Positions 5,214 through 25,800 of a DNA stretch of 64,000 bases are shown here, one piece after another (positions within the stretch are counted from its first letter, which is position 1; each line of letters begins with the position of its first letter). Below the pieces are notes generated by a model, which was not told the DNA's origin, did not search any database, and saw only the letters and a program-made list of their open reading frames with translations. The DNA comes from Chaetoceros tenuissimus. Taxonomy: Eukaryota; Bacillariophyta; Thalassiosirophyceae; Chaetocerotales; Chaetocerotaceae. The translations under genes were made by a program, and so were the position numbers. The stretch is from contig BLLK01000058.1 of the NCBI GenBank assembly GCA_021927905.1, forward strand, positions 434,001-498,000. The letters run 5' to 3'.

Positions 5214-8200
5214 CTAAACAGCAAGAAATAAAGCCAGAAGACAAAGTAAAATCGTCGTGATCGAGGTCGTCAAGCTTTCTGCTCCAGAGTGGTACTGCTG
5301 TTCGGCAAGTTTCACCAATTCTGAAGCTAATTGATGTGCATGTCCTGTTGAATTATGATCATGATCTTTGTTGAAGTAGATAGCCATAGTGCTATTAATG
5401 ACATCTATACATTCGACATCAGAAAAAGTGATGTTCCGTGCTCCTTCAATTTCTAAATCGTCTTCGATAATAATGGAATAGCAGTAGATGAAAGTTTTCA
5501 TAGCTTCTTCGATTCCCATGATGATAATGTATGAAAGCATATCATCGTATACATCATCGGTCACGTGTATAATTTGTTCATTTCTTAGGTCAAAGGTATG
5601 CAGTAGAATTTCAGTGAGTTTCGAGTAATAGATTTCAAGTCCCTCAACCTTCACAGCATCAACGCAACCTAAAGCGCTTGAAACATTTTTCCATTCAGAT
5701 AAAAATGGGACCATGGATAATCCCTCAAAAGTAACAGTATCACCAGCATCGTTTGTCAAGGTCAAATTTTCTGCTTCATAACATGTTTCAATTACACCAG
5801 AAATTTCGTGGTCGATGAATTCCATCCACTCTGAAGTGCGGTCGTAGGTCCTTGCCTCAAACATTTGCCAACTGTGATTACTAGAGTTTGAAGTAAAACT
5901 ATTGAAGTAACCATAAAATCTTCTTTCTGTATGATTCTCGTTGTCCTCAATCCATTCTATCTCAATGCTTTGATATTCAGCATCCCCTGGATCTCCTCCT
6001 ATCATATAATTGATGGCGCTAGCCATTGTCACTGGCAACTGACCTTTTTCTTGGAACTCAAAGCGTTGAGCTTTTAAGAGATAGTGCTCCGTAGCCCAAA
6101 ATACACTGCTGTAATTACCGTACTGATTGCATGGTGAACCAAGATCGAGTTTTTCACATGGAGAAGGAGAATAGTCATCATCGTAATCTGGATAATAGGG
6201 ATCCTCAATCTGCAAAAATGCAGACGTAGAAATAATCAAGTCCTCAGAGTCACTGCGGAAAACAATACGATACTCATATTTCCCACCTTTTTCGACAGCG
6301 GTATCCACAAATGATGAATAAAAAGGACTGAGGTCGGAAAGCCATGTCCATTTGTTAGACTCATGAATTTTTCGTCTCTCAACAATTGTTCTACGTGCAC
6401 CTTCGACTTTATGAGTCCCGTCCCAGTAAAGGCGCACGGCATCATATTCAGGTATGACACTTGCTTCTAGTATCAGAGGATCCAGTAATGTCCTGTCAAC
6501 AGTGGTTGCGTGTAAAATGTTTGACCAGTCAGATTTGCTGACTTCATTGACCCCCCTCACTCTATAATAATAAGTTGTATCATAATCGAGATCTACATCG
6601 TGGAAAAGAGTATCGTAGATATTCGAGACCCACATGTAATACATGTTGCCGAGAACATTTTCCCAACCTCCAAAAGGATTGAAGCTCCTTTCAAGTTCAT
6701 AATAGTCTACACCTTCCAAAGGGTTCCACCAAACAATTACTTCAGGTAAAGAAGGCGAAGTCGCAGTTTTGACGAGGATAGGAGAGTCATGAAGTTGTGG
6801 GACCTTTGGCCATGTTGTTACGTACAACGATTCAGTAAAATTCGACCGACCAAATTCATTCAGAGCTAGAACTTTATACTCGATTGTAGTGTTTCCGGAT
6901 AAATCTTGATGTATATAGAAAGTTTCATTTGTTTTGATAACTGTGACATTGTTGTTCAAATAGATCCGAAGCCTATACTCTGCAGCATTCTCCACATAGC
7001 CCCAGTAAATGTAGGTTTCATTATGAGCTGTAGCAAATCCTCTAATAAAGTCTGGTGAACGAGGGGCAGAAAGTCTAATATTCACAATGTTGGAGGGAAG
7101 AGAAATTTCATTTCCCTTGTGTACATAAACTTGATAATCATAGGTAACCCATACATTCAGCTGGGAGTAATCAGTGAAAGAAGTTACATTGGCTGTTGTA
7201 TTCCCGACAAGAATCCAATCTTCTTTCCAATCCTGCCAATCTTCTCTTCGATATATTGAGTATTTATCTGCCCCACTTACTGGATTCCAATACAAAACAA
7301 TGCCATTAGATGAACTAATAACATTAACAGAGGTACTACAGATACCATCCCCAAAATGAACAGTCTCCCAGTAACCATAATCATATCCGGTATGAACTAG
7401 CATTCCATCGTACCAGAGAGAATAGTTCTTGCCAAAATAATCTGTATTGTGTGAGACTTCTTGATGTATATTTGATACAACCGTCAAACTCAACTTAATA
7501 TATCCCTCGGAATACAAGCCGACATAGACCCACTTCCAGTTTCAACACTAGCATAAGAAAGACCGCAGCCAGCATTAATTTGCCATTTCATTTCATCGTT
7601 ATCATCATTACCTCCAATTGAAACGTTGCCAATAGTAATGTTTATATTTGTTTCATTGGAAGCACATCTGAAATTTGCAGAAGGTGCTGATGATGGAGAG
7701 ATATTATCGGTATGATTTCTACAATTATCTTCACCGAATAAAAACCGTTTGCCCACATCAATAGTTTCGTTGAAATGAATAAATTTGTTATCATACAATA
7801 GCGTGAAGTTACCAGGTCCACTCAATGCCTCAATCATAAAAAGATATTTGCTTCTCGGAACACATGTAACGCTGCTTGTTTTGTTGGCAATAAAAGTAAA
7901 ATCATCACAGTCATCATATAAAATCCATTCTGCTTCAAAGTTTTCAATTAGGGTAACATTGAGAAGAACTTCAGTTCCTGTGCAATCTGATGGCTGGTGC
8001 TCAATAGGAGGTGATGTAATTTGGTACGAAGGCGGACCAGAATGTGGATGCAATGTGTAGTTTGATTCCAAGTTTGTTGGAGTCCCAGATGAAACTATTG
8101 GAGAAGGCGTCACTGAAGGAACAAATGTATTTGACGGCTGCTTAGAAGGAGCTGGTGTGATTTGGTACGAAGGCGGACCAGAATGTGGATACAATGTGTA

Positions 8201-10192
8201 GTTTGATTCCAAGTTTGTTGGAGTCCCAGATGAAACTATTGGAGAAGGCGCCGCTGAAGGTGATAGGGTATATCTTGTTTCAGGTTCATATATTGTTTGA
8301 AGTGATTCTTCGAAGACAAGAAACAATGGCGATCCATTCACTGCAGAATTTAAAGCAATTACATAACGACCATTACTGGTCTGAAGGAGAGCTTTCACAT
8401 TATAGTTCCTATCGATTCTAGTTGTCATCAGAAGTGCGATATCATTACTCCATTTTTCTAGAGTACCGAACCCCTCCTCGGAAGATCTCAAAATAAGTAA
8501 ACCATTTTCAGAGGATATTCCTTCATCAAAACTTGAGGGCAATGTGAAATTTAGACGCTCAAAAGTATCTGCATCATAAAACTGCCCAGAACCGAGCAGT
8601 ACATAATTTGCGTGAGGATGGATAAGTATTGGATGCATGTACCTTGAATCTTGGAGACCTGATTTCATTTTTTCTCCTAGTTCTCCATTGGAATTGATTT
8701 GTATCCAGCTCATATCACCAGGATCAAAATCATTCCTGAAATAATATATTCTTTGAGTTGAATTATTCCAGACATAATCCAAGGACGACTCTCCTCTTTC
8801 AGAAGAGATTAGATTCCCACCGGAGTCAAAGGTGTAAAATACTGTAAATAAATTCTCAGAGGTCACGGCAAACAAATATTGTCCTGCAGTCACAAGCCCA
8901 GTTGGAGAAGCAGGTAATGTGGCAAACGGCTCTTCTAAATCGTCTTTGATCTTCATAATCAGTCTAGTCTCCTCGTAGACGGTGTAAATAGTACCAGTCT
9001 GTTGGGAATAAGCAACGTATTGTGGAGATCCGAACAAATGGATTGTAGAACCGTAGTTGTAGCTGTTAGCATCCCAGCGAAAGATAGCCTCGTGTTCTTT
9101 ACTTAAGAAGTGAAGAACATCATTTGGACCAACAAAAGAATCATCTGGTGACCAAGTTAAATTGGCTGGATCCAAATCTCGAGCAATTGGCTCAGGACTT
9201 ATGAAGTCTGCAATTGAGATGACCTCAACTTCAATACCATTTGTACTGTTATCATTAGATCTAAAGATAGAAACTGTCGAAATGACATTATTTGCCATGA
9301 TATTTAGTACAGCTCCATGTGAAACATCACTCTCTGCAACCAAAATTGGCAACAAAGTTGTATCATTGAATAATGTGAACTTGTGTTCCGAGTGAACGGC
9401 AATTGGCAAACCATCAATCCAATCTATGTCAATGATAAAATCTGGGAGAGCAAACGAACTTAAATAGGATAGAGTGAGGGCATCAAACACGATTCCTGCC
9501 TCGTCCACCACTCTACGATTTGCAGGAAACACCCACACTTTCTCTGCATCAGAGAAATCTTGGTAATAAGTGCTCTCCTCATAAGAAAGCAATGTACCAT
9601 TATCACTATATGTCCAGAATGCAATATCAGATGAACTAATTCCGCTGGTTTTTCCATAAATTCTATTATTTTGCTTCGAAATCGAAGCTCCATACAAATG
9701 CCTTGCATACCACTGTAAATTCGATGCAGAATCAATGACCTGAGAAGAGTTCCTATCTACAATCGTCAAATTGGCATCCATGCCATTAATTCCTTTCCCT
9801 AAAAGAAGCAACAAATCGTCGTCGGTAAAGATTGTATCAATCGTTCCACCAGCAGGAATATCCAAAATGGCTTGAAAGGAGCCTTTTTCCAAGTTATATT
9901 TGAGGACAGTCGCCTCATAAGCAACATACATCATGTCATCTTGACTAACATGGAATGCTTTTGGATTTCCAAAAATATAAGTTGCGTTACTAAAGTAAAA
10001 AGAATCAAACCAAGTTTGGTTTGTAGTGTTGTATCGCTCTAAATGAGCAGGAGAACTGGAAAAAAAGAAGGCAACATCATCTTTTCTTTGAAAAGAATCC
10101 CAACTGCCTTTATTATGAACTGTTGGATGCTGGGTATTACCCTGAGGAAAGGTGAGTTGCAAGTAGCAATAAGAGGGTCGTCAACGCTCGCA
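5214..10192 (-). CDS. Secreted multidomain protein with fibronectin III repeats, probable GPI anchor; one frameshift
   Basis: An ATG at 10192 opens a signal peptide (MRALTTLLLLLATHLSSG). A 37-nt GT-AG stretch (10140-10104) would splice it in frame to the long body that begins WDSFQRKDDVAFFFSS. The N-terminal half (about 10100-8280) has repeated short beta-strand units with many N-glycosylation sequons and looks like a beta-propeller. A Pro/Ser/Thr linker follows with a duplicated 47-residue unit. Then come cysteine-containing segments (about 8010-7510) and three to four fibronectin III modules (about 7350-6180; for example VIVWWNPLEGVDYYELERS with YYYRVRGVNE). The C-terminus ends in a hydrophobic tail (TTILLCLLALFLAV) after small residues, as in GPI-anchor signals. 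Near 7510 the frame shifts by one base inside CIPR-GYIKLSL; one missing base restores continuity. Likely a cell-surface adhesion or wall protein. Confidence 0.75.
8020..8252 (-). repeat. Two-copy 141-bp in-frame tandem repeat in Pro/Ser linker
   Basis: About 90 bases starting at 8021 recur at 8162 with very few changes, a period of 141 bp or 47 residues. Each copy encodes SSGTPTNLESNYTL-x-PHSG followed by PPSYQIT. It lengthens the linker between the propeller-like half and the cysteine-rich part of the surface protein. Confidence 0.85.
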
Positions 10193-10653
10193 TGTTTTGA
10201 TTGAAAATACTAATTGGAATGGTTGATATTCATAGTATTAACTAAGATATATACTATGCGTGTAACAAAAAAGATACACTTTTTAAAAAGAAAAGATTTT
10301 GAGAATCCAATGTCACGAAACGGGAAAGAAAAAAAGGGGAAAGGGAAAGAAAAATTAGCACTAGCATAGGACTACGCTGGAAGTTCATTGTTTCATAGAT
10401 ACGTCATTGTATGCAGTAACATGAACTTTGTTTTTTGTTTGAACTCTCTTGTTCTGTTAATGATTTATATTTATATTATCAGGACTTGCAGCTGAAATAG
10501 AACACACCTGACAGGTTTCAGCAGTTTGTTTTAGTTATTACGTGTCGTAAGACCGCTGCTCTTCGTAAAATTTTCACCATTTGGGCAGACTTGACTTTCA
10601 CATTGGAATCTACCTACCTTCTTGGTTCAACGCCATCATTACTTTTTTCAATC
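10193..10653. promoter_or_regulatory. Shared upstream region of two divergent genes
   Basis: The 461 bases separate the start of the minus-strand surface protein (10192) from the proteasome-like gene (10654). The region must hold both promoters. I see AT-rich tracts and a purine-rich run near 10320-10350 but no motif I can name. Confidence 0.5.
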
Positions 10654-11469
10654 ATGGCCATCAATAATTGCATGATGTACATATCGTACTATTTTCCTGT
10701 ACTAATTCTCCTTTTACTATCAGAAACACCAAATGCTCAACAGCAGCAAGATCCTACAACGTTGAATGGAGGGTCTATCATGGCCATGTCTGGGGAGAAC
10801 TGTGTTGCTATAGCCGTAGACAAACGCTTTGGCTCTGGACCTCAAATGATCCACGTCAAACCACGTACTGTTTTATGCCCAAACTCTCAAGTCATGGTAG
10901 GGTTAGTAGGGTTAGAAGGTGATGTTCAAACTCTAGCACATGAACTCTCAACGCATATTGATGAAAAAGTTTCAAGGTATTCAGGATTTGATTTCAGTGG
11001 AAACATGGGGTTGGAGGTTAGAAAGAAAATAAGCCCCAAAAGTACAAGCATTTTGCTAAGCCACTTATTATACAGTAAACGAAACAGTCCATATTATGTT
11101 GAGCCTATTGTTGCTGGTTTGGAACTCGTAACACAAAGTAAACAAGAAAAAGACGAAGGTGATGGTGGAAGTCTGGAGAACGAAAGGATAAAAAGATATG
11201 TTCCATTCTTGTGTGCTCAGGACTTAATTGGTGCTCAGAGTAAATCGAATGCTTTTGTATGTTCTGGTGCAGCATCGAAATCTTTATATGGCTGTGCAGA
11301 AGCTCTATGGCGACCTAATCTCAAGCCAGATGAATTACTGCAGATATGCGGAAGAGCTTTTGTGAGTGCACTTGAGAGAGATTGCCTTAGTGGATATGGT
11401 GCAGTCATATACTTGATGGAGGGCGGTAAAGGTATCACTCAATATGACGTATCTTGTAGGAATGACTGA
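10654..11469 (+). CDS. PSMB3: 20S proteasome beta-3 type subunit with N-terminal secretory leader
   Basis: The body matches the non-catalytic beta-3 subunit of the 20S core: NGGSIMAMSGENCVAIAVDK near the start, SPYYVEPIVAGLELVT in the middle, and AQDLIGAQSKSNAFVCSGAA followed by YGCAEALWRPNLKPDELL. The catalytic Thr is absent, as is normal for beta-3. The oddity is the N-terminus. The first in-frame ATGs upstream of the conserved NGG start (10654 and shortly after) give a hydrophobic stretch, YYFPVLILLLLSETPNAQQQ, that looks like a signal peptide with a cleavage site after PNA. No other ATG lies between it and the conserved part. With no Phe after the site, the family rule for bipartite presequences would point to the ER or periplastid compartment rather than the stroma. 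A short charged insertion (SKQEKDEGDGG) lies before the last third. 271 residues. Confidence 0.87.
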   Translation: MAINNCMMYISYYFPVLILLLLSETPNAQQQQDPTTLNGGSIMAMSGENCVAIAVDKRFGSGPQMIHVKPRTVLCPNSQVMVGLVGLEGDVQTLAHELSTHIDEKVSRYSGFDFSGNMGLEVRKKISPKSTSILLSHLLYSKRNSPYYVEPIVAGLELVTQSKQEKDEGDGGSLENERIKRYVPFLCAQDLIGAQSKSNAFVCSGAASKSLYGCAEALWRPNLKPDELLQICGRAFVSALERDCLSGYGAVIYLMEGGKGITQYDVSCRND

Positions 11470-12944: not shown

Positions 12945-13817
12945 TTATAGCAACTCTCCATATAGGAATGTTACGTTGGATACTTTTGATACTGTGTTGT
13001 CTTGATTACTTTGGAAAAAGGTCATGTAGTTCCATTTTTCCTTCACAATTAGTTTTCCTAGAGGAATATCAATTTTCCTGGAAGTTGCCAATGCTTCACT
13101 ATCAAATACTTCAATGTCATGGAACCGCAATCCAACGTATTCATCATTTCCTCGAATTCTCATCTTACTCGCTTTCGTAAAAGGGATTTGATGATCTATT
13201 TTCTCTGAAAAGTTTTCCTTGAAAATGACTTGGAATTCATTTTCAAGATCATCGCCCGTAAAGATAACAGTGAATTCAGACATCTCCTTCGGTTTGTAAA
13301 TAACAAATTGTCGAATCAATTTTGTTTCGCCAAATTCGATTTCAATCCAATTTATTTCTTCCGCTAATGATTCAAAGCTCGTGTCTATATTTCCATCGAT
13401 TGCCTTTGAACAATCATTGGTTGGCGCAGAAGCAGAGCTTGAACATTTCCGGCCTAGCGCAACATTATACCGGGCAGACTTTGGTATGTATCGCTCAACT
13501 TTTGAATCGCTACCGAAAGGCTCACCTTTCCAAGTTGGTTCGTCTATATTCGAAAAATTAATACAGAAGGAGTCTGATGAATAGATATCCGCATTTTGTG
13601 AGAGACACAAGGCAACATATTGCTTGACAGAAGTCACCTCAAAGCTCATTTTACAATATATAATGTCTATAAAATATGTTTTTGAAAAGCGATATGTATG
13701 CTGAGTTGTGCCATGCATATATAAAGACCTTTCGTTTACTAATGTTCCTCCGTACTCCTCTTCTGGTTTTCTTATTAGGTGAAGGGACGCATAGAAGGGC
13801 TTATTTGATGTTGCAAG
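12945..13817 (-). other. Terminal exon: unnamed beta module with an inserted discoidin domain
   Basis: The module starts GGTLVNERSLYMHGTTQHTY, runs to DSFCINFSN, is interrupted by a discoidin-like domain (NVALGRKCSSSASAPTNDCS, KAIDGNIDTSFES, IEIEFGETKLIRQFVIYK; about 13465-13095), then resumes KIDIPLGKLIVKEKWNYMTF to the stop. The insertion point matches that in the exon at 17485-18471. No membrane anchor or GPI tail follows. Confidence 0.75.
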
Positions 13818-16800
13818 CTGATGCACAATAGTAAGTGCCTTTCAATAAGAGCGGAGCAAAACATGAGTAAATTGGGATAGTAGAAAGGCAATGATTCAGC
13901 AATACTTACATTTGAACACTTTGCATCACTATGAATTCTTGGTTCTATAAAACATTTATTTGATGATCCACTGTAGCATTTTATGCATGAATCAAATTCA
14001 GTGATGAACTTCCCACCATTGGAGGACATAAATCCATCTAAACATTCACAGGTTGCCGGGGCATTATTATTGCGAACGATAGTTCTGACTGGTTTTGAAT
14101 TCTCATCTCGACAAAGTCCGTTTTCTACCAACAATGATTCCACTGGTGCTTGGTGGAATTCTAACGATTTTATCAAAGTAAATTCTCTCCTTTCGTTGCT
14201 TGATCTTCCATAATTTGTTTGCCTAAACTGGATAAATTTAATTCCAATTTTCCGATCTATCAACTCCTCTCCAAGGTCGAAACCTAAAAATTCTTCAGTT
14301 CCAAACTTCAAATCAAAACACAGCGTAGGACATGTATTAATTATGCTGCTGTCTTGTGAAGGTAAAATACATACTTCTGATTGTATGCTTTGTCTAGAGG
14401 CGCCTACAATATGTAGACTGGTGAATTTCGTCACGTTTACAATGTTGGATAATTCGTAAGTGCTGATGACATTATCGAATAATTTCAGGGAATTATCCGG
14501 CTCCACAATTTCACCTCCTTGACCACTACTGCTTTTACGTGATGCAATTATTGGATTTGCGGTCGTCTCATGAGACATTACATTTAAGCTGCCAGATGAC
14601 TTACACATGTAATCTACACAGTAACCAGACGTGCATTCACTGAAGTGATCACATGCCTGAAAATCAAAATTTTCCATGGCATTTTTGACGCATTTATCAT
14701 ACTTATCTATGATTTTGCCATGGTTTGATGAAACATAACCTTCTCTACAAGCACAAAAATTTTGTGAATCCACTTCAATTTCCAATGAGTTTTCATCAAA
14801 ATCATTGCAGTTATTCTCTTCGATTTCTTTAATTCCTTGTTTCATGATGTTGAAACTGTCAACAATCAAGTGTGCTCGATTCCTATTCCTAGACGGTAAC
14901 TCTGTTTGAACGATGTACAGATATTCAATACTTCCATAGCGGTAGTTAAAGACTTCGCCTATCGAAATTGAAACGTTTTGGGACTCAAATGAAAGAATTT
15001 CTTTGCATCTTGTCTCGTACCATTCAGGTCTAATCAATGCTTCGTCTCTATTTTCGTAGAAGCAAATCTCCAATTTACCAGGATGTGAAATGTTCTCCAT
15101 CTGAAACTGAAGTATAGAGTATCTATCAAAAGCTATTGCTTCCTCGAACTTGTAGAATTTGCGTAAAGTACCATGGAGTGAAAGTTTCTCTGTGGAAGAG
15201 TCCATACTTACTCCTCCTCTTCCAACAATGATCTCGTCTGCGTATAAATCGTCTACAACTAGACTAGCATTAACTTTTTCTACCCCTTCACTTTCTGTTT
15301 GGATTGAAAATTCGAAATTCTATTCATTGCAGGTTGATTAGTGGCAGTGTAGCATTTATTTCTGCAAAAATTAAAGCAAAAATACTACTTACATTTGCTT
15401 TACACATTGAATTTTCACATATTCCTTGATCACATTCATCATCAGTTTCGCACTCATCTCCCTCAAAGAAGCATTTATTTGATCGGATGCATAGAATGCA
15501 TTGATCCATTTCGGACTGAATTCTTCCACCGTTGGACGACACGTAACCTAACTCGCACTCACAGGTGTCTCCCCCTTCATTAATGACTGCATGAGGGTCG
15601 ACGCATTTACCATTAACTATATGTTTCGGAATTCGATCTTGTTCAAATATAAGGTTTCTTAGTGTGAAAGGGACATCAAGATCACTCTCAGATTTCATCT
15701 CTTGCCAAAATCCGATATACTTGATGAAACAAGTTTTGTATTCGATCGCTTCTCCAACTTCTATCTCAACTATTCCATCACTATCACCAAATTGTATACA
15801 ACTTGAAGGTGAAAAATCAATCATCTCTTCTAGGTCCTCAAAGAGACAAATAGATAATTCTGCTTTATTGCTTTGTATAGTTGCTCTGAGCTTTGTAAAT
15901 CTATTGACCTCAAAGGACTCCGATAACTCAAACAATCTAAAAGTTGTTCTCATTATTTCGATTTGTGAGTTATCTACTATAAAAACTCCACCATCATTGT
16001 GCTCAATTGTAGTGTAATTATCAGATGAAAGGAGAGTCTTGAAGATAATTTCAGATGTTGAATCATCTCCATCAATGGATATTGTAAAGTTGGCCTAAAT
16101 TTTGATGAGTATAGCTCAGTATTAAAAGAGAAACGTCATAATATACACTTACCCTACTGGAACATTTATCAAAAGCGCAAATTTTACTTTTGCACTGTCC
16201 ATTGTTAGAACACAAATCACCATCAAGTAAGGATGTCAATGATATTGGCTCAGAGGATGGCAAAGAGGAAGGTAGTTCCGTAATAACAGGAGATTCTGTG
16301 GGACTCAATGTTGTTGGAAAAGAAGAAGGAGAGAACGACAAAGTTGGTGTATTAGTAGGGGGGAAGGAGATTGTTGGCCTCGCACTTGGAGATTTCGATG
16401 TAGTTGGATGTGTTGTGGGTGTCGCAGTTGGTCTTTGTCCACAACCTGCATCCTCTGGACAAAGTTCGCAACGATCATCAACGTCTATGAGAAATTGTCC
16501 TCCCGTCGGATTTGATGATCTGAAACCGGACATGCACCTACATTGAGCATCAAACATATTTCCATTTGTTCCAACTGACAGCGCATTATCTTTGCAATTT
16601 TTCTGGTACTGTTCATCAAAGTGGTATGAGACAAGAAGAGACAATATTTTGTACTGTTTCTATTCAAATAGAGACTTACCTGGAATGAAGTAAAATCTCC
16701 TTTTTCATCAACTACGTCTATCCGACCCGTTTGTTCGTTAATGGCGACACCACCTAGTCCCAACTTTCGTGTTTCTTCCAAACCGTATGCGATTTCGTCC

Positions 16801-19800
16801 AATTGCTTCCAAGATGATTCGCTGTTTCTGTAAAGTGTAATTGCACCAACCTTGTTGTCTTCATCATTCATAGCTTTAGGCGCAGTGACAGCAAGTGTGT
16901 TACCGCTATTGGAAAGGGCAACTTTCCATCCAAAAGTTTCCATTTTTTTGTTGGTAATTTTTTTCTGTGGAATGAAAGTTCCTTTGCTGCTTATATTGTA
17001 CGTGTACACAGCGTTTTCATTAGGGCTACCAATCACAGCCATCATAGAATCCTGTGTTATATCTACTCCGTTACCGAAACCTAACATCCAGACACGAGTA
17101 TCCAATACACGTGGTCCTATCTGACTAGAAAAGTCAACTAGTTTGACAATACCAACCTGCCCTCCCGATTCAAAACCTATGATTGCAATACCGTTATCAG
17201 ATATAGCCATACTCCTCACAGCTGCATTTTTCTCTGTGTATTCCAAGGCATTCTTCTGTTTACCATCTACCAAAACAACTACTGTGTCCGCTCGACTTTT
17301 GACCGCGATATACTCCTTACCTGCAGAGTTTGTTCTGAATTCAGCACCCTGTACATTGATTTTCTCCGAAGTTTCAATCAGCAACATTTCTTTAGATTGC
17401 TTTTTCATGAAACCAGATGTGAAGAAATATTAGGATTTATTTGCCAATATGAATTTTCAGTTTCTAGCAATTAAAATCTCTTACCTGAGCTTCTACGATG
17501 ATTGCTGGTTCATAAATGGTAATTTCATCGATCCTCACATACGCCATTTCAGGATTTTCGTTATCCTGTAGGAACCCGATTCTATTCACTTTCATCTCTT
17601 CATTGAAAGTAAATATTTCACCAATTGGTAAATCGAAGTCATATTTGAAACCAAAGACTTGGACCTCTGCTAAACACAAGATGCGAGGAGAATTCCCAGT
17701 AAGGGTTATTCTTAGCTTTTGACCTTCAACTTTTTCAGGTAAGGTAATTTCAATTTTTTTTGCATCACCAGATTCACCAGGCATAAATTGTTCCTGAACA
17801 GCCTTATCCTGTGAGTCATAAATTGTCACTTTAAAGTCAGATAGCGAATCGTCGTATTTATCCATTCTTTTGAAGATGACCAAGTTTCGTATCAAAACAA
17901 CACCCCCAAAATCGACTTGCCACCATGGCTGTGATTCTAATTTGGTCTCGGTAACAGTATTCAAATTTATAGCATCAATGGACAGCGTCTGATCCCCTAT
18001 CCTTCCATCTACTGCCAGAGAAGATATTGATTGCTTTTCAGTACTGGACTGAGAAGTTTTTTTCCCTAACGCAAAATTCTGGAGATTTCCTTTGAGAGAT
18101 TCGTGCTTAAAATTCACAAGGACATCATTCACATTAACTTCGAGTGACTGCTGGAAAAGTCCTACACAAGTGACGGCAGCGTCCTTAAAGGATTTCACAT
18201 GCTGTTCGTAGACACATAGTCCAACATTAATCTTTGATGTCAGCGGCATGAGATTTGTCAAAGTAAACTTGATTTTTGTATTCTTTGTCACCGAATAACC
18301 TTCTTTCATCTCAAAAGAAACCCGGGCGGTTCCGTGCAAATTCAAAATGTTTTCAGGGTTAATAATTACTCCTCCAGCACGTTCTGACTCTCCTGGCCAG
18401 GTTTTTGCACTAATCAGATTCATTAACACTTCTGTATTTTTTTTGTAGTCAGCATAAGTGATAGACAAAGGCTACAGAACAGGAATGTGAGGAAAAAATA
18501 TATGATATAGAAAGCTGGAAAAACAATGGACATACCTTCGACTTGCAGCCATAATCAGCAATGCAAGTAGCCTGTTCAAAAAAGCATTCTCTATCGGCTC
18601 TACAAATCCCACCTTCAAATAAAGCACGATCCATCGTCGGATATGAAGATGGAGCCTGAGACATTGTCGGTTTATCGGAAGGAACACCTGTCGGAGATTG
18701 GGAAGGATTTGAAGATGGCATTGAAGATGGATTTCCAGTAGGTTTATAGGATGGAAGCGAAGATAATGTTGGAGATGCAGTTGGAATGCCTGTGGGAGGA
18801 TGAGAAATAGAAGGAGAATTTGAAGTAAATTCATCAAATGTAGGTCTATTTGTTGGTTTCGAACTCGGCACCTGAGAAAGACTTGGCGTAGGTGATGGTC
18901 GTTTTGTTGGACGGTCACTTGGTAATGAGGATGGACTATCGGAAGGTTGCTGCGAAAAAGCTCGAGAAGGTTTTGACGACGGCATTAGACTAGGCAAATC
19001 TGATGGACGCAAACTTGGTTTCTCGGATTTTACCCAAGTTGGCAATTCACTTGGATCCATGGATGGCTCGATAGTTGGTAATTCACTTGGTTCAAGCGAA
19101 GGGGTGGTACTTGGTACATTAGAAGGAAGGCTGGAGGGATCTAAAGAAGGAAAAAATGAAGGTGATACACTCGGTAAGTCACTATGAAGAATCGAGGGTC
19201 CTGAAGATGGAAGTATACTTGGTTGGGACGATGGCACAAGACTAGGTTCGTGCGACGGAGCCAATGATGGAAGAAGAGAAGGCTGCAAGGAAGGGAGACG
19301 ACTTGTCTCTAATGATGGTAGCAATGAGGGCTTTAGAGATGGAAAAAGTGAAGGTTCTGAAGACGGAACAAGACTTGGCAAGCTGGAAGGTACTGAAGAC
19401 GGTCTGATGGATGGAATATCGCTAGGTACATCTTTGTTGAAGTGAAGGACAGAAGATCATTGGTTTGCGTTTTTACAAGAGAGTTACATTCATATCACGT
19501 ATCATTCATACATAACTTACCAGAAGGCAACGAAGACGGCAAACTCGACGGAATCATGGAAGGCTCAGTCGAAGGCAGGCGGCTTGGCCCATTAGACGGA
19601 AGCAAAGAAGGCTCGCTTGACGGAAGTGAAGATGGTTGATCAGATGGTACGTCTGACGGAATATCTGATGGCATCGATGACGGAAGTGAAGATGGTTGAT
19701 CAGATGGTACGTCTGACGGAATATCTGATGGCATCGATGACGGAAGTGAAGATGGTTGATCAGATGGTACGTCTGACGGAATATCTGATGGCATCGATGA

Positions 19801-22800
19801 CGGAACAGAACTTGGTTGATCAGATGGTACGTCTGACGGAATATCTGATGGCATCGATGACGGAACAGAACTTGGTTGATCAGATGGTACGTCTGACGGA
19901 ATATCTGATGGCAGCGATGACGGAACAGAACTTGGTTGATCAGATGGTACGTCTGACGGAATATCTGATGGCATCGATGACGGAACAGAACTTGGTTGAT
20001 CAGATGGTACGTCTGACGGAATATCTGATGGCATCGATGACGGAAGTGAAGATGGTTGATCAGATGGTACGTCTGACGGAATATCTGATGGAACAGAACT
20101 TGCAAAGTTGAAGGTTCTTCTGAAAAATGTTGAATTTCAACCACTGTTATGCCATACAGTTCCAAGTTTTGATTAAGATCGTTCAATGCATCTTCCATAT
20201 TTTTTGTTACGGTCAATGAATCAGGTAAGGCCACTGTCTCATTATTGTCAACAACGACATCAATCACTATGTGTACTTGATAATAATAATTGATCTCCTA
20301 ATATTCGTCTTTGAGTATTCTGGGAGGAAGAACAATCATCGTTTGTGACACTTGTTGATAATTCAAGAATGCTGTCTGTAAATTCTCCATTCAATCAACA
20401 TATTTCAATTGATTATTAAAAACATTTTTCTCATCTTCTTCAAGTCTCCATTAGTTGAATTGAAACATTTGCTTGAACATACTGTACAAACAACTGTTGT
20501 TGGGTCTTAACTTTGGTCCTGTTGGATTCTCAGATGGCATTAAAAGAAACAGATGGTTTGCAAAGAAGGCTCTAATGTGTTGATGGTGTAGAACTTGGTG
20601 ATGTAGATGGTTGCAGTGAGGGGATGATCAGACATACTAGGCTCGAAAGACAAGCTTGGTACTACTGAGGGAAGTTGAGATTTGCTAGGCTGAGATGATG
20701 GGAAAGAGCTTGGTAAAGTAGATGGAGTTAATGAAGGTTGGCTTGGAAGGAAGTTTGCTAGGTTGAGATGATGGCGTAAGAGACGGAAACTTGAAGGTTG
20801 TGTGGAAGGAAGTTTGCTGGGAAGCAAACTTGGCTGGTCTGAAGGTACATCAGATGGAATAGAAGTGAACTTGGTTGATCAGATGGTACGTCTGACGGAA
20901 TATCTGATGGCATCGATGACGGAAGCACACTTGGCTGATCAGATGGTACGTCTGACGGAATATCTGATGGCATCGATGACGGAAGCACACTTGGTTGATC
21001 AGATGGTACGTCTGACGGAATATCTGATGGCATCGATGACGGAAGTGAACTTGGTTGATCAGATGGTACGTCTGACGGAATATCTGATGGCATCGATGAC
21101 GGAAGCACACTTGGCTGATCAGATGGTACGTCTGACGGAATATCTGATGGCATCGATGACGGAAGCACACTTGGTTGATCAGATGGTACGTCTGACGGAA
21201 TATCTGATGGCATCGATGACGGAAGTGAACTTGGTTGATCAGATGGTACGTCTGACGGAATATCTGATGGCATCGATGACGGAAGCACACTTGGCTGATC
21301 AGATGGTACGTCTGACGGAATATCTGATGGCATCGATGACGGAAGCACACTTGGTTGATCAGATGGTACGTCTGACGGAATATCTGATGGCATCGATGAC
21401 GGAAGTGAACTTGGTTGATCAGATGGTACGTCTGACGGAATATCTGATGGCATCGATGACGGAAGCACACTTGGCTGATCAGATGGTACGTCTGACGGAA
21501 TATCTGATGGCATCGATGACGGAAGTGAAGATGGTTGATCAGATGGTACGTCTGACGGAATATCTGATGGCATCGATGACGGAACAGAACTTGGTTGATC
21601 AGATGGTACGTCTGACGGAATATCTGATGGCATCGATGACGGAAGTGAAGATGGTTGATCAGATGGTACGTCTGACGGAATATCTGATGGCATCGATGAC
21701 GGAAGTGAAGATGGTTGATCAGATGGTACGTCTGACGGAATATCTGATGGCATCGATGACGGAAGTGAAGATGGTTGATCAGAAGGTACGTCTGACGGAA
21801 AATCTGATGGCATCGATGACGGAACAGAACTTGGTTGATCAGATGGTACGTCTGACGGAATATCTGATGGCATCGATGACGGAAGCAAAGATGGTTGATC
21901 AGATGGTACGTCTGACGGAATATCTGATGGCATCGATGACGGAAGTGAAGATGGTTGATCAGATGGTACGTCTGACGGAATATCTGATGGTATCGATGAC
22001 GGAAGTGAAGATGGTTGATCAGATGGTACGTCTGACGGAATATCTGATGGCATCGATGACGGAAGTGAAGATGGTTGATCCAGATGGTGATCTGACGGAA
22101 TATCTGATGGCATCGATGACGGAACAAGAACTTAGTTGATCAGATGGTACGTCTGACTGGAATATCTGATGGCATCGATGACGGAAGTGAAGATGGTTTG
22201 ATCCAGATGGGTACGTCTGACGGAATATCTGATAGCATCGATGACGGAACAGAACTTGGTTGATCAGATGGTACGTCTGACGGAATATCTGATGGCATCG
22301 ATGACGGAACTGGGGCTTAAGTTGATACGTCCAGATGGTACGTCTGACGGAATGTCTGATGGCATCGATGACGGAACAGAACTTGGTTGATCAGATGGTA
22401 CGTCTGACGGAATATCTGATGGCATCGATGACGGAACAGAACTTGGTTGATCAGATGGTACGTCTGACGGAATATCTGATGGCATCGATGACGGAGCAGA
22501 ACTTGGTTGATCAGATGGTACGTCTGACGGAATATCTGATGGCATCGATGACGGAACAGAACTTGGTTGATCTGATGGTACGTCTGACGGAATATCTGAT
22601 GGCATCGATGACGGAACAGAACTTGGTTGATCTGATGGTACGTCTGACGGAATATCTGATGGCATCGATGACGGAAGTGAACTTGGTTGATCAGATGGTA
22701 CGTCTGACGGAATATCTGATGGCATCGATGACGGAAGTGAACTTGGTTGATCAGATGGTACGTCTGACGGAATATCTGATGGCATCGATGACGGAAGTGA

Positions 22801-25800
22801 AGATGGTTGATCAGATGGTACGTCTGACGGAATATCTGATGGCATCGATGACGGAACAGAACTTGGTTGATCAGATGGTACGTCTGACGGAATATCTGAT
22901 GGCATCGATGACGGAAGTGAAGATGGTTGATCAGATGGTACGTCTGACGGAATATCTGATGGCATCGATGACGGAAGTGAAGATGGTTGATCAGATGGTA
23001 CGTCTGACGGAATATCTGATGGCATCGATGACGGAAGTGAAGATGGTTGATCAGATGGTACGTCTGACGGAATATCTGATGGCATCGATGACGGAAGTGA
23101 AGATGGTTGATCAGATGGTACGTCTGACGGAATATCTGATGGCATCGATGACGGAACAGAACTTGGTTGATCAGATGGTACGTCTGACGGAATATCTGAT
23201 GGCATCGATGACGGAAGTGAACTTGGTTGATCAGATGGTACGTCTGACGGAATATCTGATGGCATCGATGACGGAGCAGAACTTGGTTGATCAGATGGTA
23301 CGTCTGACGGAATATCTGATGGCATCGATGACGAACAGAGGCAGTTGATCCAGATGGTGATCTGAATATCTGATGGCATCGATGACGGAAGTGAACTTGG
23401 TTGATCAGATGGTACGGCTGACGGAATATCTGATGGCATCGATGACAGAACAGAACTTAGTTGATCAGATGGTACGTCTGACGGAATATCTGATGGCATC
23501 GATGACGGAACAGAGCTTGGTTGATCCAGATGGTACGTCACAGGCGGGTATCACATTAGCGTGATGAAAGGAAGTGAAGATGGTTGATCAGATGGGCGTC
23601 TGACGGAATATCTGATGGCATCGATGACGGAAGTGAAGATGGGATTTGATCCCAGGTGTGCGTCTGACGGAATATCTGTTAATCGATGACGGGAAGTAGA
23701 ATGAAGTTGATCAGATGGTACGCGTCTGACGGAATATCTGATGGCATCGATGACGGAAGTGATGAAGGTTGATCAGATGGTACGTCTGACGGAATATCTG
23801 ATGGCATCGATGACGGAAGCAAACTTGGTTGATCAGATGGTACGTCTGACGGAGTATCTGATGGCATCGATGACGGAAGCAAACTTGGTTGATCAGATGG
23901 AATGTCGCTCGGAATATCTGATGGCATCGATGACGGAAGCAAACTTGGTTGATCAGATGGTACGTCTGACGGAATATCTGATGGCATCGATGACGGAAGT
24001 GAAGATGGTTGATCAGATGGAACATCGCTCGGAATATCTGATGGCATCGATGACGGAAGCAAACTTGGTTGATCAGATGGTACGTCTGACGGAATATCTG
24101 ATGGCATCGATAACGGAAGTGAAGATGGTTGATCAGATGGTACGTCTGACGGAATATCTGATGGCATCGATGACGGAAGCAAACTTGGTTGATCAGATGG
24201 AATGTCGCTCGGAATATCTGATGGCATCGATGACGGAAGCAAACTTGGTTGATCAGATGGAATGTCGCCCGGAATATCTGATGGCATCGATGACGGAAGC
24301 AAACTTGGTTGATCAGATGGAATGTCTGTCGGAATATCTGATGGCATCGATGACGGAAGCAAACTTGGTTGATCAGATGGAATGTCGCTCGGAATATCTG
24401 ATGGCATCGATGACGGAAGCAAACTTGGTTGATCAGATGGAATGTCGCTCGGAATATCTGATGGCATCGATGACGGAAGCAAACTTGGTTGTGCAGATGG
24501 AATGTCGCTCGGAATATCTGATGGCATCGATGACGGAAGCAAACTTGGTTGAGCAGATGGTACGTCTGACGGAATATCTGATGGCATCGATGACGGAAGC
24601 AAACTTGGTTGATCAGATGGTACGTCTGACGGAATATCTGATGGCATCGATGACGGAAGCAAACTTGGTTGATCAGATGGAATGTCTCTCGGAATATCTG
24701 ATGGCATCGATGACGGAAGCAAACTTGGTTGATCAGATGGAATGTCTGACGGAATATCTGATGGCATCGATGACGGAAGCAAACTTGGTTGATCAGATGG
24801 AATGTCGCTCGGAATATCTGATGGTTCATTTGATGGTAATGTAGAAGGTTGTTGAGAAGGCATCGATGAAGGCTGACTCGAAGGCATTGAACTTGGTACA
24901 CTTGGTTGATCAGATGGAATGTCGCTCGGAATATCTGATGGCATCGATGACGGAGGCGCAAACTTAGTTGATCAGATGGTACGTCTGACGGAATATCTGA
25001 TGGCATCGATGACGGAAGTGTAGATGGTTGATCAGATGGTACGTCTGACGGAATATCTGATGGCATCGATGACGGAAGTGTAGATGGTTGATCAGATGGT
25101 ACGTCTGACGGAATATCTGATGGCATCGATGACGGAAGCAAACTTGGTTGATCAGATGGTACGTCTGACGGAATATTTGATGGTACAGATGACGGAAGCA
25201 AACTTGGTTGATCAGATGGAATGTCGCTCGGAATATCTGATGGCATCGATGACGGGACAGAACTTGGTTGATCAGATGGTACGTCTGACGGAATATCTGA
25301 CGGAATATCTGATGGCATCGATGACGGAAGCAAACTTGGTTGATCCGATGGTACGTCTGACGGAATATCTGATGGCATCGTTGACGGAAGCAAACTTGGT
25401 TGATCAGATGGTACGTCTGACGGAATATCTGATGGCATCGATGACGGAAGCAAACTTGGTTGATCAGATGGTACGTCTGACGGAATATCTGATGGCATCG
25501 ATGACGGAAGCAAACTTGGTTGATCAGATGGAATTTCGCTCGGAATATCTGATGGCATCGATGACGGAAGCAAACTTGGTTGATCAGATGGTACGTCTGA
25601 CGGAATATCTGATGGCATCGATGACGGAAGCAAACTTGGTTGATCAGATGGTACGTCTGACGGAATATCTGATGGCATCGATGACGGAAGCAAAGTATCC
25701 ATAACAAGCGCTGTAGCTGACGGCAAAGAAGATGGAGCAATGGACAGAGATGGCTGGATACTCGGTAGAAGCGACGGTGCAGTCGATGGTATTTCTGATG

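Follow-up and report, generated by a model that had tools for sequence, protein, structure and literature searches.

The window analysed here, a stretch of 64,000 nucleotides from the diatom Chaetoceros tenuissimus, contains a giant gene on the minus strand whose tail is made up of seven exons, A to G, with phase-0 introns between them (splice sites taken from the sequence). Exon B (18471-17485) encodes the first of five modules, M1. Its host N-terminal part lies at 18079-18471, as read from exon phase and translation, with the Gly-Gly pair at 18375. There follow a discoidin domain of 145 aa (17644-18078; PF22633, E = 1.5e-10; PF00754, E = 7.3e-8) and the host C-terminal part (17485-17643), which carries the blocks DLPIGEIF, IGFLQD and ITIYE in this order. 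Exon C (17399-16680) encodes beta-propeller-like repeats of the FG-GAP type (PF14312, E = 2.5e-5), and exon D an EGF-like, Cys-rich piece, recognized by eye in the translation, together with a Pro/Ser-rich linker (16153-16608; no Pfam match over cut-off). Exon E holds the uninterrupted module M2 (16094-15615), after which the translation shows a further Cys-rich linker, EGF-like by eye (15393-15614). Two more uninterrupted modules, M3 (15319-14816, also recovered in the own-genome search) and M4 (about 14560-14123, the weakest match of the five), are encoded by exon F, and M4 is again followed by a linker that by eye is EGF-like and Cys-rich (13910-14122). Exon G (13838-12945) encodes M5 up to the terminal stop codon: a host N-terminal part (13470-13838), a discoidin domain of 130 aa (13080-13469; PF00754, E = 8.7e-7) and the host C-terminal part with the stop codon (12945-13079).

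An upstream frame at 30791-27243 on the same strand probably forms the 5′ part of this gene, as judged from the sequence. Pfam and a discoidin profile identified three tandem, free-standing discoidins, a ricin-type trefoil and Pro/Ser (PT) repeats in it, and its start resembles a signal peptide by eye. Discoidin, ricin trefoil and PT repeats together give the gene a secreted context. About 80 copies (20868-25694) and another eight copies (19618-20091) of a 60-base repeat coding for Pro/Ser sequence of the PSxxPSD type lie in the window and presumably belong to the same gene. Beyond the tail, a long open frame with a Pro/Ser-rich part (7490-10180, minus strand) had no Pfam match at E 0.001; it is adjoined by a proteasome subunit gene (10501-11469, plus strand). 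The 41-Mb genome as a whole yields 11 matches to the silicon transporter family PF03842 (best E 2e-211), a family that passed its cut-off in none of 14 control genomes; together with the Pro/Ser-repeat genes, this is what one would expect of a diatom.

The original prediction had described five copies of one unnamed module at this locus, and all five were recovered at their places. Each starts with Gly-Gly and has the first Cys, a block of the (I/L/V)GE type and an invariant Gln. Pfam likewise bore out that discoidin domains are present in M1 and M5 only and missing from M2-M4. In M1 the insert scored 42.0 bits against PF22633 (cut-off 27.8) and 33.0 bits against PF00754 (cut-off 28.2), while the M5 insert reached 29.6 bits for PF00754 and, with 26.2 bits, stayed under the cut-off of 27.8 for PF22633. 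The inserted domain is thus a member of the F5/8 type C (discoidin) family over the Pfam cut-off, differing from a usual member in being anchored at both ends in another domain; the gene also has discoidins that stand free. The insert was said to sit at the same point in both copies, between the Cys of the host and the IGE block. The point is indeed shared; more precisely, the insert starts about 30 residues past the second Cys of the host in both copies. The host part of all five copies is without a named Pfam or NCBIfam family, as had been proposed: Pfam gave no match on the host parts of the window modules, and when the tail module was used as a query, sequence searches of Pfam, NCBIfam and the PDB returned nothing.

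Eight more genes of the genome, L093 and L009 to L015, have the same tail, and all nine tail genes carry a discoidin in M1 and M5 and none in M2-M4. In a tree of the host domains, each of the five positions formed its own group across the eight genes used, with support of 90 to 100. The tail with its five modules therefore probably predates the multiplication of the genes. In the own-genome search, the FG-GAP-type exon (17399-16680) was found again next to the tail of the eight further genes, at 32-47% identity. Four weaker partial matches to this exon were found elsewhere in the genome.

Several lines of evidence support that the discoidin of M1 and M5 is nested inside one host domain. A profile built from M2-M4 only, of eight paralogs, matched all 16 M1/M5 proteins (E 6e-20 to 4e-7). 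In 14 of these 16 a second piece was matched past the discoidin, weak when taken alone (E 7e-4 to 4.5). A second profile, made from 34 host copies found elsewhere in the genome and no tail copy, matched 40 of 40 tail modules at 14.1 to 57.3 bits when the discoidin had been cut from M1/M5 beforehand; the best of 1000 shuffles scored 8.3 bits, compared to a narrowest real score of 14.1. For the window copies the scores were 48.2 (M1), 33.5 (M5), 30.1 (M3), 28.9 (M2) and 14.1 bits (M4), with only the N-terminal part of M2 and M4 covered. Left uncut, M1 matched profile positions 2-79 before the discoidin and 98-128 after it, and M5 positions 3-91 before and 91-133 after. In silico removal of the discoidin raised the best single-domain score from 27.3 to 47.1 bits for M1 and from 14.0 to 32.3 bits for M5. 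In M1 the discoidin borders were the best among all cut positions tried; in M5 some cuts placed 6 to 39 residues earlier scored slightly higher (best 33.8). In addition, L094, a nested copy from another gene, matched window M1 across host, discoidin and host again (E 4.7e-15). The idea of one module interrupted by a discoidin is thus upheld by sequence profiles that span the discoidin as a single domain. The superposition of the host halves in structure models, which the original prediction had also called for, was not obtained; the model of window M1 was poor (mean pLDDT 59.9), and Foldseek returned scattered, low-quality matches with it. Since this model was poor and its alignment included bacterial rows, its strand order is no independent evidence.

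These data bear directly on two other readings of the flanks. They might be two unrelated short domains that are adjacent by accident, in keeping with C-terminal pieces that are weak on their own and an M1 model too poor to reveal one fold. We consider this scarcely credible, because the flanks match consecutive parts of the uninterrupted-copy profile in 14 of 16 cases and because the scores of both M1 and M5 of the window rise by some 18 to 20 bits once the discoidin is removed. Alternatively, the host could be a diverged discoidin, that is, a discoidin duplicated into itself. The discoidin fold is a beta sandwich, like that of the host, and discoidin repeats are frequent in the gene. At sequence level this is disfavoured, and we regard it as very improbable: an hhalign comparison of the tail, other diatom and bacterial host profiles with discoidin yielded P values of 0.23 to 0.51 over 1 to 28 columns, whereas the other diatom hosts matched a bacterial domain at P 9e-27 in the same comparison.

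This bacterial domain gives the host its relatives. Bacterial and archaeal genomes were searched with the consensus of a similar-looking bacterial pattern (GNxW .. GEIHGIGFDND .. LYGTQ .. IPVGQ .. SxFxNI), which returned 77 loci (L016-L092) whose titles name Planctomycetota, Bacteroidota, Alpha- and Gammaproteobacteria, Cyanobacteria, Chloroflexi and others. A very good structure model was obtained for the bacterial domain, which shows a beta-sandwich jelly roll with the fold of carbohydrate-binding modules. Among named modules of beta-sandwich fold, CBM29, CBM30, CBM86, CBM4 and CBM11 are the closest. The family itself is unnamed in Pfam and NCBIfam: 60 bacterial members compared with these libraries gave scattered weak matches and no name, three of the 60 matched CBM30 (best E 3e-4), and a profile search of the PDB reached E 0.085 to 1wmx. 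For 24 uninterrupted tail members, no CBM model was among the matches at E<=1.

A comparison of these 24 uninterrupted tail copies with the bacterial domain by hhalign (P 5e-4, probability 30%) is no more than suggestive of a direct link. After removal of the discoidin, the bacterial profile scored 11 of the 40 tail copies higher than any of 1000 shuffles (maximum 6.3 bits), led by M5 of L012 with 24.4 bits, and the other 29 scored 6.9 bits or less. The window copies ranged from chance to marginal (M1 9.9, M5 6.1, M2-M4 below 0 bits), so that the link to bacteria runs through intermediates. The bridge is formed by further copies in the same genome, in frames found by the bacterial profile at 16 to 81 bits. 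Against 902 open frames of the genome, this profile detected copies without an insert, the best of them at 59.8 bits. It also matched some copies in two pieces, as in L094 (66.8 bits; positions 16-101 and 112-159), where the pieces lie about 150 residues apart. At the profile level, hhalign connected the other diatom copies to bacteria at P 9e-27 and M2-M4 to the other diatom copies at 1.4e-17. As far as sequence homology goes, these comparisons establish the tail module as a strongly diverged eukaryotic offshoot of a jelly-roll domain found widely among secreted proteins of bacteria; it is homologous throughout and has the conserved blocks in the same order. In M1 and M5 the discoidin interrupts the host at a point that corresponds to the interval between strands 5 and 6 of the bacterial model. 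Compared to the original prediction, the new elements are that the module has relatives, in a widespread unnamed bacterial domain of carbohydrate-binding-module fold, and that this genome contains the host with 0, 1 or 2 inserts.

We scanned 17 bacterial host proteins for their domain neighbours. Ten contained protease domains of secreted type (M12B, S8 or trypsin-type) and others carried cadherin-like, RTX, RHS or fn3 repeats, so that the scanned set consists mostly of proteases and adhesin-like proteins. BNR repeats of the sialidase type occur in L021, and L018 has a beta helix of the CEMIP type. At E 1e-5, none of the 17 showed a glycoside hydrolase family; carbohydrate binding by the host is thus unsupported by its neighbours.

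For the host tree and for residue counts, we used 12 of 18 uninterrupted non-tail, 11 of 15 one-insert, all 11 two-insert, 40 of 45 tail (leaving aside L093) and 26 of 77 bacterial copies. A cysteine pair was common to the 74 diatom rows without exception and absent from the 26 bacterial rows, and therefore marks the whole diatom branch, which forms one side of the split against bacteria in the host tree (support 98). For the presence of this pair, a second alignment gave 80 of 81 and, respectively, 66 of 72 among the covering rows. The two cysteines probably form a disulfide. The conserved bacterial residues are largely retained in the 34 non-tail diatom rows, with the Asn of GNxW in 31, its Trp and the His in 33 each, the first Asp of FDND in 25 and the two Asps of the later DxD motif in 25 and 20; the Gln of YGTQ is kept in 12 and the Gly and Ile of GEIHGIG in none. 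Among the 40 tail rows the Asn occurs in seven, the Trp in four (all of them M5), the His and the first FDND Asp in none and the later DxD Asps in 10 and 4, M1 keeping the first of these two in 8 of 8 rows. M1-M5 are accordingly homologues of the bacterial GNxW/FDND domain rather than demonstrated equivalents in function.

In this genome the same host exists uninterrupted, with one insert and with two inserts. Own-genome searches scored the best candidates only, and every copy count is a lower bound. Outside the tails there are at least 18 uninterrupted copies (12 fully read and six more as unbroken profile matches) and at least 15 with one discoidin in the same loop (11 fully read, four more by profile). 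Another 11 copies have two inserts, the further one comprising 106-120 residues (559 in L115) and lying between the next two strands. This second insert bears a weak likeness to discoidin (no more than 19.4 bits): nine of the 11 scored above the best of 550 shuffles (5.9 bits) and two did not. A second gene family carries two inserts in its first host copies, namely in L097 (928-2286, minus strand) and in the first copies of L095, L096, L098, L099, L100, L101, L116, L117 and L118; here a discoidin follows strand 5 and the second insert lies in the next loop. The 559 residues of L115 (862-3543, plus strand) stand in an open frame and include a long Pro/Ser-rich stretch, and an unspliced intron is possible. 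In the uninterrupted copies of L105, L110 and L112 an apparent intron breaks the frame directly ahead of the GGTEFDHW-type block, near the discoidin site of other copies. L119 (G000:C44:1011857-1012636) is nested and has an in-frame TAG within its matched region; it may be a decaying gene or contain an intron.

No split host was found among 122 host matches in the 77 bacterial frames. We also searched bacteria with a nested diatom query (host 1-86, discoidin 87-234, host 235-277), which was matched by 29 of 50 bacterial genomes holding the host. The matches listed covered either the first host part or the discoidin, and none of those listed for the 50 genomes joined the host core to a discoidin. 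A few listed matches began 8 to 14 residues ahead of the discoidin, and another, which contains three stop codons, spanned 79-255. Discoidins in tandem just before the host were present in two of the 77 bacterial frames, L061 and, weakly, L059. In L061 (523-3963, plus strand), a Saprospiraceae protein, two tandem discoidins directly precede the host, an arrangement that possibly pictures the state before insertion. Searches of viral contigs returned no relative of either the uninterrupted or the nested copy.

The discoidin may have been inserted once, after the host had entered the lineage, and then been kept, duplicated and, in some copies, lost, or several independent insertions may have hit the same permissive host loop. 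The host tree speaks for repeated events: nested hosts as one clade were rejected (p-AU 0.0156), which means that a single gain requires several losses, and the insert state changes at least six times on this tree. A second loop of the same host also received an insert, and the branch separating nested from free discoidins has weak support (39/65). The discoidins themselves point the other way. Among 38 nested and 24 free discoidins, one nested clade was not rejected (p-AU 0.367), and the nested ones stood apart from 22 of the 24 free ones of the same genome, two free discoidins falling on the nested side. The M1 and M5 discoidins are sisters (95/82), and within the tails the M1 and M5 hosts were not rejected as a clade against M2-M4 (p 0.456). 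We therefore judge independent insertions to be possible if somewhat unlikely; one insertion followed by several losses is the simplest joint reading and the most likely. As to function, the loss of conserved residues from the tail copies and the protease- and adhesin-type neighbours of the bacterial domain lead us to propose that the tail hosts are scaffolds. They might instead still bind glycan or metal with a changed specificity, the discoidin being a second site of a bivalent lectin module. The bacterial member has the fold of a carbohydrate-binding module and all 8 M1 rows retain the leading Asp of the later DxD motif, which fits such binding, but the Trp, the His and FDND are gone from nearly all tail copies and the relatives sit mostly in proteases and adhesin-like proteins (17 scanned). 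Binding by the tail hosts thus seems rather unlikely to us.

The best overall explanation, which we hold to be probable, is that the module is a diverged bacterial-type jelly roll with a nested discoidin, inserted most likely once, and that the tail host serves as a scaffold in a giant secreted adhesin or matrix protein. Such a protein would consist of tandem discoidins, a ricin trefoil and a Pro/Ser stalk, followed by the tail. Having lost most of the conserved Trp, His and Asp while keeping the core and the cysteine pair, the tail hosts are probably stiff, disulfide-stapled scaffolds. Gripped at both ends, the discoidin would be presented in a fixed orientation beyond the long Pro/Ser stalk, and the discoidins, rather than the host scaffold, would bind glycans or surfaces. 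The wider history that we envisage is about evenly poised between right and wrong: a bacterial-type extracellular domain may have entered a diatom ancestor, gained a lineage-specific disulfide and taken up a discoidin at one loop, with a sub-branch acquiring a second discoidin-like domain at the next. The composite could then have become the building block of a large secreted lectin-like family, in whose tail copies the binding site of the host would have decayed so that they now mount the discoidin only.

The module represents a domain family that is named in neither Pfam nor NCBIfam and that has members in a diatom as well as in several phyla of bacteria. The occurrence of the same host with zero, one and two inserts in one genome makes steps of domain insertion directly comparable. 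As the end module of giant Pro/Ser-rich proteins, which are candidates for surface adhesion, it should allow glycan binding to be tested on small constructs. In the open-access literature searched, including passages of PMC8027222, PMC5124317, PMC11960938 and PMC13114784, we found no description of the nested module. Similarly expanded discoidin-bearing gene families exist in discoidin-enriched diatom clusters such as clust_77 of Cyclotella cryptica (85 genes; PMC5124317), for which the passage on them names neither a nested arrangement nor a host domain. According to a survey of 48,551 insertion events, inserts are usually smaller than their hosts (median 115 versus 199 residues; PMC13114784), whereas the inserts of 145 aa in M1 and 130 aa in M5 are about equal to the host core.
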